Shown here: positions 3,193 through 37,709 of the stretch, one piece after another
How positions within the stretch are numbered: the stretch's first letter is position 1
How the letters are laid out: each line of letters begins with the position of its first letter
Assembly (NCBI GenBank): GCA_017521195.1
Contig: JAFXGP010000003.1
Location: 1 to 41,053 of the forward strand
Direction of reading: 5' to 3'
Source: Lachnospiraceae bacterium
GTDB lineage: Bacteria; Bacillota; Clostridia; Lachnospirales; Lachnospiraceae
Length of the DNA: 41,053 nt
The notes under the pieces: generated by a model
What the model saw: only the letters and a program-made list of their open reading frames with translations
Databases searched by the model: none
What the model was told of the DNA's origin: nothing
Program-made: the position numbers and the translations under genes

Positions 3193-4494
3193 ATGGATTC
3201 TATTTGGACAAGAAGCGAGAAACTTCCAAAATTTCCCCAGTTACAAGGTGATATAAAAACAGATGTGTTGATTGTTGGTGGAGGAATGGCAGGAATTCTA
3301 TGCGCCTATTTTTTACAGAAACAGGGAATAGATTATATTTTAGTTGAAGGTAGAACCATTTGTTCCGGAGTGACAAAAAATACTACGGCAAAAATCACAT
3401 CCCAGCATGGATTAATCTATCATAAACTTGTGAAAGACATAGGAATTGAAAAAACATTAATGTATCTGCAAGCAAATCAGGAAGCACTTCAAACCTATGA
3501 AGAACTTTGCCAAAATATAGAATGTAATTTTGAAACAAAGCCATCTTATGTTTATTCCTTGGATGATCCATGGAAAATAGTACAGGAACTTGGTGCATTG
3601 GATGATATAGGATTTGAAGCAGAATTTCGTAAAGCGGAGGAATTGCCTTTTAAAACAGCGGGAGCCGTCTGTTTTGAACATCAGGCACAGTTTCATCCTT
3701 TAAAATTTATTGCTTCTATTGTAAAAGATTTGCATATTTATGAACAAACTTTTGTAAAAGAGTTAAAAGAAAAGATTGCGGTCACAAATCAAGGTAATAT
3801 CGAGTTTCAAAAAATTATTTTTACAACCCATTTTCCCATAGATAATAAACATGGAATGTATTTTATGAAAATGTATCAGCATCGTTCTTATGTAATTGCA
3901 TTGAAAAATGTACAAATGTTAGAAGGAATGTATGTGGACGAAAGAGATAAGGGGTTATCTTTTCGGAATTATGGGGAATATATATTGCTTGGCGGCGGCA
4001 GCCATCGGACAGGGAAAAAGGGTGGAAACTGGAGTGAACTTAGGGATTTTGCAGACAAGTATTATCCAAAGTCAAAGGAGATTGCGTTTTGGGCAACCCA
4101 GGACTGCATGACCTTAGACCGGATTCCTTATATCGGACAATATTCTATGAGCAGAAAAAATTATTATGTAGCTACAGGATTTAACAAGTGGGGAATGACA
4201 TCTTCCATGATAGCAGCAAAGATTTTAACAGATTTAATTATGGAAAAGGAGAATTCCTATACAGAGGTATTTAATCCATCCAGAAGTATGCTGAAGCCAC
4301 AGTTATTTATAAATATAGGGGAATCTACTATGAATCTTTTAACCTTTGGCAAAAAAAGATGTCCTCATCTGGGTTGTGCTTTAGAATGGAATGAGGTGGA
4401 AAAATCTTGGGATTGTCCTTGTCATGGTTCCAGATTTGATGAAAATGGAGGGGTAATTGACAATCCCGCTACGGGAGATTTGGAGATTGAGTAA
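3193..4494 (+). CDS. FAD-dependent oxidoreductase with C-terminal Rieske domain
   Basis: 433-residue fusion of a DadA/glycine-oxidase-like FAD domain with a Rieske [2Fe-2S] domain. The Rossmann dinucleotide motif is VGGGMAGILCA near residues 28-38. The Rieske ligands are in CPHLGC (Cys390, His392) and CPCHGS (Cys408, His411) at the C-terminus, which ends at the family's usual GDLEI strand. The architecture resembles Bacillus YhfW, whose substrate is unknown. A TTG start at 3175 is possible, but ATG 3193 is seven bases after AAAGGTGG and fits the family N-terminus. A Rieske protein in a probable strict anaerobe suggests amine or amino-acid oxidation linked to an internal electron carrier, which is inference. 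Confidence 0.85.
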   Translation: MDSIWTRSEKLPKFPQLQGDIKTDVLIVGGGMAGILCAYFLQKQGIDYILVEGRTICSGVTKNTTAKITSQHGLIYHKLVKDIGIEKTLMYLQANQEALQTYEELCQNIECNFETKPSYVYSLDDPWKIVQELGALDDIGFEAEFRKAEELPFKTAGAVCFEHQAQFHPLKFIASIVKDLHIYEQTFVKELKEKIAVTNQGNIEFQKIIFTTHFPIDNKHGMYFMKMYQHRSYVIALKNVQMLEGMYVDERDKGLSFRNYGEYILLGGGSHRTGKKGGNWSELRDFADKYYPKSKEIAFWATQDCMTLDRIPYIGQYSMSRKNYYVATGFNKWGMTSSMIAAKILTDLIMEKENSYTEVFNPSRSMLKPQLFINIGESTMNLLTFGKKRCPHLGCALEWNEVEKSWDCPCHGSRFDENGGVIDNPATGDLEIE

Positions 4495-4504
4495 ATGTTT
4501 TATT

Positions 4505-4550
4505 ATAGGTAACAGTATTAAGTTTAATAGCTGAACTGTTACCTATTTTA
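4505..4550 (+). terminator. Intrinsic terminator after the Rieske oxidoreductase
   Basis: Perfect 12-base arms ATAGGTAACAGT (4505-4516) and ACTGTTACCTAT (4535-4546), followed by TTTA. The 18-base loop has some internal pairing. Bases 4551-4738 downstream hold no convincing gene. Confidence 0.8.
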
Positions 4551-4738
4551 ATTATGGAAAAATAATTGATTTTGAAAAAATGTACGAAGATCAATAGATA
4601 TTTAAAATTTTTAGTAGAATTTTTAGAACTCAACAAATCGTAGAGTGTCTTTTTTGCAAGGTAAAGTATTCATCGGTTTTATAATCTATATTAGAGTATT
4701 ATGCTAAGAATATAAAAGAAAAAGATGGAGGGCATAAC

Positions 4739-4926
4739 ATGGAAGCAAAAGAGTTGGGAAAATATATTGCTAAAAAACGAAAGGAAAAGCAAATGAGGGA
4801 GCAACATCATTATTTGTAGTGGGAAGAGTAGATAACTATTCGGCTATGATAATTCTTATAGTAGGAATTATTGTTTTGCTATGTGGATTCTTTGTAATGT
4901 TACACTCAAGGAATCATGACAAATAA
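4739..4926 (+). pseudogene. Remnant of an XRE-family regulator with a C-terminal membrane segment
   Basis: After a good ribosome binding site (GATGGAGGG) an ATG opens a 26-codon frame whose start (MEAKELGKYIAKKRKEKQM) is the first helix of an XRE/Cro DNA-binding domain. It then runs out of frame and stops at 4819. In another frame, from about 4801 to the TAA at 4926, lies a membrane anchor with a core like SAMIILIVGIIVLLCGFF and a short basic tail, as found at the end of many Clostridia XRE membrane proteins. The simplest reading is an internal deletion plus frameshift that removed the rest of the DNA-binding domain. Alternatively the first 26 codons are a translated short peptide. Confidence 0.6.
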
Positions 4927-4971: not shown

Positions 4972-5000
4972 TTGATAGAAAATCATAAATTTGTTATAAT
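4972..5000 (+). promoter_or_regulatory. Strong promoter of the DUF234 ATPase gene
   Basis: -35 TTGATA (4972-4977), spacer of exactly 17, and -10 TATAAT (4995-5000). It stands 63 bases before the start codon. Confidence 0.75.
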
Positions 5001-5007
5001 AAGAGCA

Positions 5008-5048
5008 GTAATTACTAATCAAGTAATTAGTAATTGTACAATTAGTAA
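5008..5048 (+). promoter_or_regulatory. Cluster of AT-rich dyads at the ATPase transcription start
   Basis: AGTAATTACT (5008-5017) is a palindrome, AATTACTAAT (5010-5019) and ATTAGTAATT (5026-5035) form a perfect 10-base inverted repeat, and AATTAGTAA recurs near 5040-5048. They begin eight bases after the -10, where a repressor would block initiation. They could also form a weak leader hairpin. Confidence 0.45.
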
Positions 5049-5063
5049 AAAGAGGCGGTAATT

Positions 5064-6467
5064 ATGTTTATAGGAAGAGAGAGAGAATTAAGCAAATTAA
5101 ATAAAATGTATCAAAGTGAAACGTTTGAATTTGCGGTTTTATATGGAAGACGGCGTGTAGGAAAAACAACTTTAATTCGTGAATTTATGAGGGATAAAGA
5201 AGGTGTTTTTTACATGAGCATAGAAGGAACAAAGAGGGAGAATCTGCAAGGGTTATCAAAAGCTGTATTATCAAAAAATGAGTTGCAGCAAAATACCGCC
5301 GAGTTTCGGGATTTTGAGGCTCTTTTAGATTATATAGATACTCTTGCGAAGACGGGGGATAGAATGATAATTGCTATTGATGAATATCCTTATTTGGCAG
5401 CATCATATCCCTCCATTTCTTCTATGTTACAGAGTCATATTGATAATTGTTGGAAGGATAGTAAATTATTTTTTATATTATGTGGTTCTTCCATGAGTTT
5501 TATGGAAGAGCAGGTTTTGGGATATAAGAGTCCCCTATATGGAAGACGTACAGCACAATTCAAAATGCATCCATTTACATTTTTTGAGGCAAGAAAAATG
5601 TTAACTGATTTTTCCAAGGAAGAGCAGGCAATTTTGTATGGAGCATGTGGGGGGATTCCGGAGTATTTATCAAGAGTATCTACGAAGCTAAGCGTGCATG
5701 AGAATTTAACGCAGCTATTTTTTGAGGAATCAGGACGTTTGTTTGAGGAACCTGTAAACTTAATGAAGCAGGAATTAAAAGAACCCATGAGTTATCATTC
5801 TATTATTTCGGCGATTGCGTCAGGTGCCAGCAAGGTAAATGAAATTGCAACAAAAACAGGTTTGGAAACCAGCGGATGCAGTAATCAGTTATCTTCTTTA
5901 ATATCTTTGGGAATTGTATGTAAAGAAACACCTATAACAGAACCGGAAACCAGTAGAAAAACGTTATATCGTCTGGCGGATAGTATGTATGTATTATGGT
6001 ATCGTTTTGTTAGGCCAAATATTAGTAGTATTTCCAGGGGAGTAGGAGAGCAGATTTATAAAGCTGTGGTACTTCCTCAGTTAAATGATTTCATGGGAAA
6101 GGTTTTTGAAGAAATCTGTCAACAATATTTATTTTTGCCCGGTGTCTATGAAACATTGCCCTTTCCTGTCGGAAAAGTAGGGCATTGGTGGGGAAATAAT
6201 CCCCAAAAGAAGTGTCAGGAAGAAATAGATTTGATGTCCGTATATGAAGATAAATTACTGATCGGAGAATGTAAGTGGAAAAATGAAAAAGTAGGAATGA
6301 ATGTTATGGAAAAATTGTTAGAACGTGGGGAATTATTTTCTCACAAGGAAAAGAATTATATCATTTTTTCAAAGTCAGGATTTTCCGAGGAAGTTATGGA
6401 ATATGCAAAAGAAAATGAAAATATTAGATTAGTTGATTTTGAAAAGATGTGTGAAGAAAGTAATTAA
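5064..6467 (+). CDS. AAA-type ATPase with DUF234 (PD-(D/E)XK-like) C-terminus
   Basis: 467-residue protein of the COG1672 ATPase type. Walker A is GRRRVGKTT starting at Gly28; Walker B is the IIAIDEYPY segment near residue 110. A winged-helix-like part follows (about 250-320). The C-terminal DUF234 region has EID (Asp389) then GECKW (Glu402, Lys404), the usual active-site pattern of the PD-(D/E)XK nuclease fold. The family is common as stand-alone genes in Clostridia and archaea and its role is not settled; defence or DNA processing has been suggested. It has its own strong promoter with possible operator dyads and lies beside a decayed regulator gene, which suggests a mobile or accessory locus. 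Confidence 0.85.
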   Translation: MFIGRERELSKLNKMYQSETFEFAVLYGRRRVGKTTLIREFMRDKEGVFYMSIEGTKRENLQGLSKAVLSKNELQQNTAEFRDFEALLDYIDTLAKTGDRMIIAIDEYPYLAASYPSISSMLQSHIDNCWKDSKLFFILCGSSMSFMEEQVLGYKSPLYGRRTAQFKMHPFTFFEARKMLTDFSKEEQAILYGACGGIPEYLSRVSTKLSVHENLTQLFFEESGRLFEEPVNLMKQELKEPMSYHSIISAIASGASKVNEIATKTGLETSGCSNQLSSLISLGIVCKETPITEPETSRKTLYRLADSMYVLWYRFVRPNISSISRGVGEQIYKAVVLPQLNDFMGKVFEEICQQYLFLPGVYETLPFPVGKVGHWWGNNPQKKCQEEIDLMSVYEDKLLIGECKWKNEKVGMNVMEKLLERGELFSHKEKNYIIFSKSGFSEEVMEYAKENENIRLVDFEKMCEESN

Positions 6468-35311: not shown

Positions 35312-36127
35312 ATGAAAAAAATTGTCGTAACTTTATTAGCCGGCGTAATGGCTCTCGGTTTGGTAGCTTGTGGCGGTTCTTCTGACAGTGCAGCTGAATC
35401 AAAAGTACCTGCAAACACAGTTCATTCTGTAGATGATTTACCGGGCAAAACAATTGGTGTTCAGTTGGGAACAACAGGTGACATCTATGCAAGTGATTAT
35501 GAAGCAGAAGGTTCTACAATCGAACGTTACAACAAAGGTGCTGATGCTATCCAGTCCTTAAAACAGGGTAAAGTTGATTGTGTAATCATCGATGCACAGC
35601 CTGCATTAGCTTTCGTAGCTAAAAATCCTGAATTAAAAATTTTAGAAGAAGAATTTGCATTAGAAGAATATGCAATTTGTGTTTCTAAAGAAAATGCTGA
35701 ATTAACAGCAAAAATCAACGATGCGTTAGCTCAGTTACAGGAAAACGGAACTTTAACACAGATTATTGCAAACTACATCGGAGATGAAACAAAAGGAACC
35801 ATGCCTTACGAATCTCCTGCAGACGTTGACAGAAGCAATGGTACATTAGTAATGGCCACAAATGCAGCTTTCGAACCATATGAATATTATGAAAATCAGG
35901 AAATCGTTGGTATCGATGCTGATATGGCTCAGGCAGTAGCAGATATCTTAGGTATGGAATTAAAAATCGAAGATATGGAATTTGATTCTATCATTAATGC
36001 TGTAACAAGCGGTAAAGCAGATATCGGTGTAGCCGGTATGACAATTACAGAAGACCGTTTACAGAACGTAGATTTCTCTGATCCTTACACAACAGCAACA
36101 CAGGTTATTGTTGTTCGCGGAGAGTAA
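35312..36127 (+). CDS. Amino-acid ABC transporter binding lipoprotein, circularly permuted
   Basis: 271-residue family-3 solute-binding protein with a lipoprotein signal (LVAC, Cys20). The order of parts is reversed relative to GlnH: residues 37-157 (VHSVDDLPGKTIGVQLGTTG ... LQENGTLTQIIANYIG) match the normal second half, a linker at 158-176 follows, and residues 177-270 (NGTLVMATNAAFEPYEYY ... VDFSDPYTTATQVIVVRG) match the normal first half. Both pieces are intact and the cut falls at the hinge, so the fold should be preserved. Permease and ATPase genes follow, so it probably serves a polar amino acid. The start at ATG 35312 is fixed by GAGGAG; the open frame to 35279 has no binding site. 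Confidence 0.9.
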   Translation: MKKIVVTLLAGVMALGLVACGGSSDSAAESKVPANTVHSVDDLPGKTIGVQLGTTGDIYASDYEAEGSTIERYNKGADAIQSLKQGKVDCVIIDAQPALAFVAKNPELKILEEEFALEEYAICVSKENAELTAKINDALAQLQENGTLTQIIANYIGDETKGTMPYESPADVDRSNGTLVMATNAAFEPYEYYENQEIVGIDADMAQAVADILGMELKIEDMEFDSIINAVTSGKADIGVAGMTITEDRLQNVDFSDPYTTATQVIVVRGE

Positions 36128-36186: not shown

Positions 36187-36209
36187 ACTTATGTTAAATT
36201 TACAGACGG

Positions 36210-36265
36210 GTGTTATCTGTATATGCTTTTATAAGGATAGAGGAATATACAGATAGCACTTTTTT
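36210..36265 (+). terminator. Second hairpin: attenuating terminator before the permease gene
   Basis: Arms GTGTTATCTGTATAT (36210-36224) and ATATACAGATAGCAC (36245-36259), one G-U pair, followed by six T (36260-36265). It ends 15 bases before the permease start. Confidence 0.75.
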
Positions 36266-36280
36266 AGAGAGGGTATAAAA

Positions 36281-36979
36281 GTGAATTTTAGAGAAGAATT
36301 TTATTTGAATTTTATTCAGGATGAGAGATGGCGCTATATTACCAAAGGTTTGAGCACTACTTTTACCGTAACATTTTTTGCTGTTATTTTGGGTGTGGCA
36401 TTGGGGATTGTAATTGCATTAATCCGTTCTACAGCAGATAAAAGCGGAAGCAAATCAGTTGTATTAAAAATTGCGGACTGGATTTGTAAAGTGTATTTAA
36501 CAGTAATCCGAGGAACACCGGCAATGATTCAGTTGTTGATTATGTATTACATTGTTTTTGCCAGCCCTAATGTAAGCAAACAATTTGTAGCAATTCTTTC
36601 CTTCGGTATTAACTCTGCGGCATATGTAGCAGAAATTTTCCGTTCCGGAATTATGTCCATTGATAACGGACAGTTTGAAGCAGGACGAAGTCTTGGATTC
36701 AGCTATGCGCAGACAATGATTTATATTGTGATTCCACAGGCATTTAAAAACGTATTGCCTGCACTTGCAAACGAATTTATTACATTGTTAAAAGAAACAT
36801 CTATCTGTGGTTACATTGCTTTAACAGATATTACTCATGGTGCAAATACCATTCGAAGCCAGACATATTCACCGTTGCTTCCTCTTTTGGCAGCGGCGCT
36901 GATTTACCTTATTATAGTAAGTATTTTATCTACATTAGTAGAAAAATTAGAAAGGAGATTAAGAACAGATGCAAGATAA
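36281..36979 (+). CDS. Polar amino-acid ABC transporter permease
   Basis: 232-residue permease of the HisM/GlnP type with five or six membrane segments. GlnP-type features are [19 protein letters not shown] near residue 79 and the coupling loop [20 protein letters not shown] near residue 127. A GTG start follows GAGAGGG by six bases, which lowers translation relative to the binding protein. It overlaps the ATPase gene by 11 bases. Confidence 0.92.
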
Positions 36980-37709
36980 TCAGGTGTTGTTTGAAATTAA
37001 AGATTTATGCAAATCTTTCGGAGATAATCTTGTATTAGATCATATCTCCACAGAAATAAAAAAAGGTGAAGTTGTGGTAATCATCGGGCCGTCCGGTTCC
37101 GGAAAATCTACTTTCCTTCGTTCTTTAAATCTTTTGGAAGAACCAACCGGAGGAAGCATTACCTTTGAAGGTTTGAATATTACAGATCCAAAATGTAACA
37201 TTAATAAATACCGTCAGAAAATCGGGATGGTATTCCAGCATTTTAATCTATTTCCTCATAAGACAATTTTGGAAAATATGACTTTGGCTCCTATGAAGCT
37301 TTTGAAAAAAACAAAAGAAGAAGCAGAAGGTCAGGCAATGGAATTGTTAAGAAGAGTTGGTCTGGAAGAAAAAGCTAATGCGTATCCAAGCCAGTTATCC
37401 GGTGGACAGAAACAGAGAATTGCCATTGTTCGTTCTCTTTGTATGAATCCGGATGTGATTCTTTTTGATGAACCAACTTCTGCTCTTGACCCGGAAATGG
37501 TTGGAGAAGTTTTAAATGTTATGCGTGACCTTGCAAAACAGGGTATGACTATGGCAGTGGTAACTCACGAAATGGGCTTTGCCAAAGAAGTGGGAACCCG
37601 TGTGATGTTCATTGACGAAGGTCAGATTAAAGAAGAAAACACACCAAAGGAATTCTTTGAAAATCCGCAGAATCCGAGATTGCAGGAATTCTTGTCTAAG
37701 GTGTTGTAG
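36969..37709 (+). CDS. glnQ: Polar amino-acid ABC transporter ATP-binding protein
   Basis: 246-residue ATPase of the GlnQ/HisP family. Walker [10 protein letters not shown] near residue 38, [11 protein letters not shown], signature LSGGQKQR, Walker [17 protein letters not shown] and switch VTHEM are intact. GAAAGGAG precedes the ATG inside the permease gene. With the permuted binding protein and one permease it completes an importer. Confidence 0.93.

Follow-up and report, generated by a model that had tools for sequence, protein, structure and literature searches.

Results

The binding-protein gene and its operon

The window analysed here is the whole 41,053-nt stretch of contig JAFXGP010000003.1 from a Lachnospiraceae bacterium. 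It contains a plain operon in which the gene for a binding protein of 271 amino acids is followed by one permease gene and one ATPase gene:

35312..36127, plus strand: binding-protein ORF, 271 aa
35312..35371, plus strand: lipoprotein signal peptide, residues 1-20, with the lipobox LVAC (residues 17-20) and Cys20, read from the sequence
35372..35419, plus strand: flexible spacer, residues 21-36, linking the lipid anchor to the folded domain (pLDDT below 50 for residues 19-29)
35420..35782, plus strand: canonical back half, now first, residues 37-157, from profile matches, ArgBP alignment and model
35783..35836, plus strand: linker from the old C-terminus to the old N-terminus, residues 158-175, with a conserved motif
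35837..36118, plus strand: canonical front half, now last, residues 176-269, from profile matches, ArgBP alignment and model
36204..36265, plus strand: stem-loop with a T run, terminator-like, between the binding-protein and permease genes
36281..36979, plus strand: amino-acid ABC permease (BPD_transp_1), 232 aa, from Pfam/NCBIfam
36969..37709, plus strand: amino-acid ABC ATPase (ABC_tran), 246 aa, from Pfam/NCBIfam

The first-pass annotation had given the same coordinates for the ORF and the same residue ranges for its two halves and, as it also claimed, both pieces are complete and are followed by cognate permease and ATPase genes. An AGGAG-like ribosome site lies just 5' of the ATG of the binding-protein gene, and the protein carries an N-terminal signal with a lipobox Cys typical of bacterial lipoproteins and is predicted to be lipidated. 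The permease gene listed above is the only one found adjoining the binding-protein gene; the NCBIfam model closest to the ATPase is GlnQ, at 324.1 bits and under the cut-off of 379. The stem-loop has a folding energy of -27 kcal/mol (z -7.07; none of 200 shuffled sequences did as well) and may lower the output of the permease relative to the binding protein. By eye, the ORFs upstream of the binding-protein gene (a methyltransferase and an RsmI-like protein) appear to be housekeeping genes, which argues for a chromosomal setting. Scanned against Rfam at gathering thresholds, the window yielded only the SRP RNA (18-117, bacterial small SRP, 72.4 bits), and neither a T-box nor a riboswitch was detected; thus, RNA gives no clue to the ligand.

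The binding protein is a circular permutant

Pfam SBP_bac_3 (PF00497) matched the binding protein with 126.2 bits, far above its gathering cut-off of 26.4, and thus placed it in this family. The match falls into two stretches, the best of which aligns residues 179-269 to profile positions 1-91. Similarly, the best of two stretches matched by NCBIfam TIGR01096 aligns residues 35-156 to profile positions 121-250. In an alignment to Thermotoga ArgBP (6svf), residues 172-270 correspond to chain positions 5-104 and residues 40-155 to positions 113-226, i.e. the two parts are swapped, and the protein lacks the canonical topology, in which lobe 2 stands between the start and the end of lobe 1. The first-pass annotation, which had proposed a circularly permuted GlnH-like protein, named a profile match in the normal order as evidence against this; no such match was found, as the matches come as two swapped stretches.

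Using a profile of 36 canonical relatives, rotation of the sequence to start at residue 160 raised the best single-domain score from 159.9 to 329.2 bits, and the twelve best rotation starts were residues 157-168. In a controlled version of this test, five canonical proteins were held out of the profile, leaving 31 rows; rotation gained 33-153 bits in all 13 permuted proteins tested and at most 0.6 bits in each of the five held-out canonical proteins. In total, we conclude that the binding protein belongs to the family-3 (SBP_bac_3) amino-acid-binding proteins and is circularly permuted.

Among the NCBIfam models tried, which were of the GlnH, ArtJ and Lys-Arg-Orn types, the protein missed the cut-offs of NF007029 (121.4 versus 303), NF041765 (91.8 versus 510) and TIGR01096 (142.4 versus 256.35), perhaps only because the permutation splits the match; the protein may therefore share the ligand of one of these types despite the missed cut-offs. 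None of four permuted proteins scanned against NCBIfam reached the cut-off of any substrate-binding model listed, and annotation that is blind to chain order thus tends to hide permutants.

A two-lobe model with both hinge strands intact

The AlphaFold model of the protein is confident (pLDDT 87.8) and is that of a two-lobe binding protein, and both lobes of SBP_bac_3 are present in the sequence; hence, a different fold, which would have spoken against the proposal, was not found. The lobe 2 and lobe 1 parts of the model match separate domains of Thermotoga ArgBP with 43-45% identity. The whole-chain alignment to canonical binding proteins appears to run partly through the pseudo-symmetry of the lobes. 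The back half comprises lobe 2, the second hinge strand (about residues 116-125) and, from lobe 1, the C-terminal helices, while the front half extends from the start of lobe 1 through the end of the first hinge strand. Because both hinge strands (residues 116-125 and 260-269) are unbroken in the model, the chain break is predicted to lie in lobe 2, just past the first hinge strand, and not within the hinge. The earlier proposal that the new termini lie at the hinge was thus right as to the neighbourhood and wrong as to the exact site.

The old termini are joined as proposed, by a linker of 18-19 residues rather than exactly 19. In the aligned relatives, the linker of the permutants has the conserved motif GDxTKGxxPYxSPxxxDRS, and the linker region is modelled well (pLDDT block means of 89 and 96 over residues 161-180). 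Across 28 aligned rows, G162 and G177 are invariant. The same is true of G239, T244, R249, D94, F187 and F224, which we take to be the positions holding the amino acid in the SBP_bac_3 family; these conserved residues suggest an amino-acid ligand.

The swapped order recurs in many relatives

In a scan of one genome per species, 380 of 515 pattern matches were confirmed as relatives, and the best 80 of these 380 were kept. A colinear ORF with the same order was present at 79 of the 80 loci, which are mostly titled Lachnospiraceae; the remaining locus, L003, is truncated by a contig end. From the window's order, 295 genomes were sampled; of the 47 genomes listed for its family besides its own, 16 have a match covering profile positions 27-263 or more of 264 with an E-value of 1e-100 or better. 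Sampling was kept to the phylum of the window and, because some fetched regions were chosen for colinear-looking or close matches, counts of permuted and canonical proteins are not prevalences. The binding protein and its relative at L001 differ by a dN of 0.081 and a dS of 1.55; over four such pairs, dN was 0.08-0.16, and dS reached 1.24 and 1.55 for two pairs, the other two being saturated. The protein is therefore under protein-level constraint. Canonical relatives (L175, L180, L177 and L094) are 64-78% identical to it in the front half and 52-55% in the back half. Two candidates were dropped: L143, read as an N-C-N protein, starts at its contig end, and L101, which its match range had suggested to be a permutant, is in fact canonical.

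A lipobox pattern was detected in 70 of the 81 aligned relatives and, in these 70 rows, the Cys lies 10-62 residues (median 13) ahead of the position of D42. Of the 11 flagged proteins, three have a lipobox by eye, and in at least eight of the 81 the signal peptide lacks a clear lipobox; these are the permuted proteins at L036, L051, L052, L061, L062, L068, L069 and L078, three of them titled Blautia. The lipobox at L060 is doubtful, too.

At L030, two adjacent permuted genes (4038-4826 and 4998-5789), whose products are 57% and 72% identical to the binding protein of the window, precede one permease gene. An ATPase match was absent from the fetched stretch at seven of the 80 loci (L007, L011, L012, L014, L015, L016 and L023), which have a permuted binding protein and a permease; their ATPase may be shared or encoded elsewhere. 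Finally, the genome of the window contains two 982-aa frames (G000:C8:34612 and G000:C79:42952; L085, L086, L088 and L089) with SBP_bac_3-like stretches, which are perhaps sensor proteins with binding domains.

Opening sites, permease fusions and arrays

The sampled relatives are opened at no fewer than four sites, all of them in lobe 2. The binding protein of the window has the P1 cut; P2 permutants are opened in the middle of lobe 2 (L149-L154, L159, L192, L193 and L146), and their profile matches overlap by a few profile positions only. On the trees described below, L146 groups among canonical proteins and away from the other P2 proteins. The P3 proteins and the P1-cut L093 and L157 are sisters (support 99/93). 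L160-L162 and L157, sister proteins of which L160 and L157 are 52% identical, have opening sites some 30 residues from each other, which looks like a sliding of the chain ends. The two cuts reflect either separate events or one redundant ancestor that was trimmed differently.

Fusions to the permease were found in 13 main-type permutants (about 500-530 aa) and in three divergent permutants. Moreover, there are five arrays of permuted domains, three with two units, one with three and one with five, each with the permease last. Two of these are:

L148, 1071-5651, minus strand: five-unit array, 1526 aa, permease-fused
L155, 1431-4532, minus strand: permease-fused array

The others are L147, L171 and L099/L158. 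In the arrays, the N-to-C joint has 13-19 residues (nine joints) and the C-to-N joint 15-17, whereas in canonical proteins the N-to-C joint is shorter, at 3-9 residues (median 4; 40 proteins) and, in two tandems, 3-4; because of these lengths, the array units are best read as permuted C-N domains. As judged by eye, a lipobox is retained in many fused forms, while a membrane anchor seems to take its place at the start of four of the five arrays; the same four have an ATPase gene directly upstream.

Permuted and canonical proteins are mixed on trees

Trees were built from re-ordered sequences hand-chosen from 182 units, a quick one of 121 rows and a careful one of 65, and on both the permuted and canonical binding proteins are intermingled. 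The first-pass annotation had suggested looking for one clade. The nearer relatives do group on the 65-row tree (26 rows at 88/84, of which 24 at 97/95, with the bootstrap unsettled here as in the permease tree described below), but a single clade of the whole cut type (32 P1-cut rows) was rejected by the AU test (p-AU 5.7e-5). On this tree, the P1 label changes six times (four forced by starred branches), the P2 label twice (both forced) and the P3 label once; the groups were partly named after the trees were seen, and each of these changes could be either a gain or a loss. The AU test did not reject one common origin for the six P2 rows (p 0.188), despite the two changes that starred branches impose. 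The placement of L144, on a long branch, is weak.

A permease tree was built from 64 hand-chosen rows of 169 permeases. Here, 20 main P1 rows form one group (88/95), while L045, L043, L071, L064, L131, L091 and L135 lie outside it among the partners of canonical proteins, and L093 lies among P3 rows. The P1 label changes 11 times (six forced), and 26 of the 61 inner branches are open. Closely related permeases adjoin both canonical and permuted binding proteins; the permease tree shows only that the two forms share one permease family.

Discussion

We are confident that the gene encodes a permuted SBP_bac_3 lipoprotein of a polar-amino-acid ABC importer that has kept its fold and hinge, has moved its anchor and probably arose by way of duplication. 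This reading is based on the observed chain order, the confident two-lobe model, conservation, the operon and the family-wide occurrence; we infer the ligand class, unchanged closure, the duplication origin and tolerance through symmetry. The chain would run from lobe 2 through the second hinge strand to the end of lobe 1, and from there through the linker into the opening part of lobe 1, with the first hinge strand last. Once folded, the protein and its hinge would be essentially as in a canonical binding protein, so that the amino acid would be caught by ordinary lobe closure and handed to the permease. The tether alone would have moved, with the lipid anchor leaving from lobe 2 rather than lobe 1. 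The first-pass annotation had suggested that the permutation may alter lobe closure or anchoring. The likely origin is a duplication that gave a tandem front-back-front-back protein, from which the outer halves were then lost. Such a tandem intermediate is plausible: canonical tandems exist (L103 and L109), and the protein aligns without re-ordering across the SBD1-SBD2 boundary of GlnPQ (6h30). No permutant whose ends are long and redundant, as would be expected of the direct intermediate, was seen among the ORFs read. Because the operon encodes one permease, the permease is probably a symmetric homodimer and, the lobes being pseudo-symmetric, could hypothetically accept either lobe beside the anchor. 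As an explanation of why permutation is tolerated, this argument does not discriminate, since 34 of 40 sampled canonical relatives also have a single permease.

Two readings would deny the permutation itself. The genome of the window is a draft of 133 contigs with 81.7% completeness, and halves swapped in assembly or annotation, or two gene fragments, might give such a picture. As for the first-pass annotation's own worry about an assembly error, this is vanishingly improbable and is ruled out by the same order at 79 of 80 loci, among them L039, the record of which is titled complete genome, and by less fragmented genomes: permuted genes occur in G661 and G658, whose assemblies have one or two contigs, and the P2 type lies on a 3.8-Mb contig (G523). 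Moreover, signal peptide, linker and operon are all intact. Alternatively, the protein could belong to the OpuAC type, which is already permuted, and the longest sequential structural match of the model is indeed OpuAC, over 204 residues. This is very unlikely, however, because the identity is 15-16% to OpuAC and 43-45% to the ArgBP domains; moreover, Pfam gives SBP_bac_3 and no OpuAC model at E 0.1, and membership in that family is rejected by sequence.

A permuted SBP_bac_3 lipoprotein may have come to be kept in different ways. By neutral drift, tandem duplication and trimming would yield permutants that are as good as the parent and merely retained. The mixture of canonical and permuted proteins on the trees, with closely related permeases, supports this, as does the different opening of P3 and L157, which is expected if ends are trimmed freely; the confinement of all four cuts to lobe 2 and the conserved main-type linker, with its two invariant glycines, suggest constraint instead, and we give this explanation about an even chance. 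If termini had been relocated adaptively, an opening in lobe 2 would suit the anchoring or permease fusion of a Gram-positive surface-tethered protein and would have been selected repeatedly. Several permutant groups with four cut sites, all in lobe 2, and the repeated fusion of the new C-terminus to a permease (13 main-type, three divergent and five arrays) fit this, and tethering is named as a possible reason by Brautigam et al. (PMC4990184). Given the relatives without a clear lipobox and the canonical binding proteins beside closely related permeases, we nevertheless consider selection for the new site doubtful.

Beyond the single gene, we lean towards several separate permutations in the phylum of the window, at four or more sites in lobe 2, with related permeases serving both forms and with arrays of up to five permuted domains. 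If so, circular permutation is a recurrent natural means of moving the tether of a Gram-positive binding protein. Permuted and canonical relatives differ mainly in the starting point and the anchoring of the chain; such pairs are a natural experiment on whether tether position matters for ABC import, and the four opening sites offer naturally permuted scaffolds for biosensor design.

TmArgBP and the GlnH and ArtJ proteins are homologous to the binding protein over both lobes and have the same kind of operon partners, and TmArgBP shares with it the GMTITExR motif and the lobe-2 Asp; by contrast, the protein of the window has swapped halves, its anchor on lobe 2 and an extra conserved linker. 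The domains of GlnPQ are in canonical order. GlnPQ (6h30) has tandem SBDs fused to a permease, and the SBD-permease fusion also occurs in permuted relatives; the boundary of its tandem SBDs is colinear with the permuted protein, but the permuted arrays differ from it in their C-N units and in N-to-C joints of 13-19 residues versus 3-9 in canonical proteins. Fukami-Kobayashi reportedly worked on 'domain dislocation'. Among the matches listed, no natural permutant of SBP_bac_3 was found in the open-licence PMC literature.

Tp0684/TpMglB-2 of Treponema pallidum ('type Ic/cluster Bc') is a natural circular permutant among the tethered binding proteins, and Gram-positive gut bacteria have relatives of it; a benefit of the new tether is proposed there, as a question raised rather than answered (PMC4990184). 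It differs in being a type I sugar-binding protein that is permuted in the N lobe and has a fourth cross-over, and thus in both family and cut; no type I (cluster B) sugar-binding family matched our protein in Pfam at E 0.1, and it does not belong to type Ic. Glycine-betaine binders of the OpuAC/ProX type and molybdate binders (CPSARST family) are likewise related by circular permutation, as seen by structure at less than 24% identity (PMC2395249); they differ from our protein in family and ligands, while the chain order of OpuAC appears to fit its model over the 204 residues. Natural permutants of binding proteins are known from a few cases, and those of the TpMglB-2 and OpuAC types came to light through structures or when little sequence identity was left, whereas here canonical relatives are still 64-78% and 52-55% identical in the two halves. 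Thus, permuted binding proteins as such are already known from TpMglB-2 and the OpuAC type; what is surprising here is that the chain is opened at four sites, that permutants are fused to permeases and that they form arrays.
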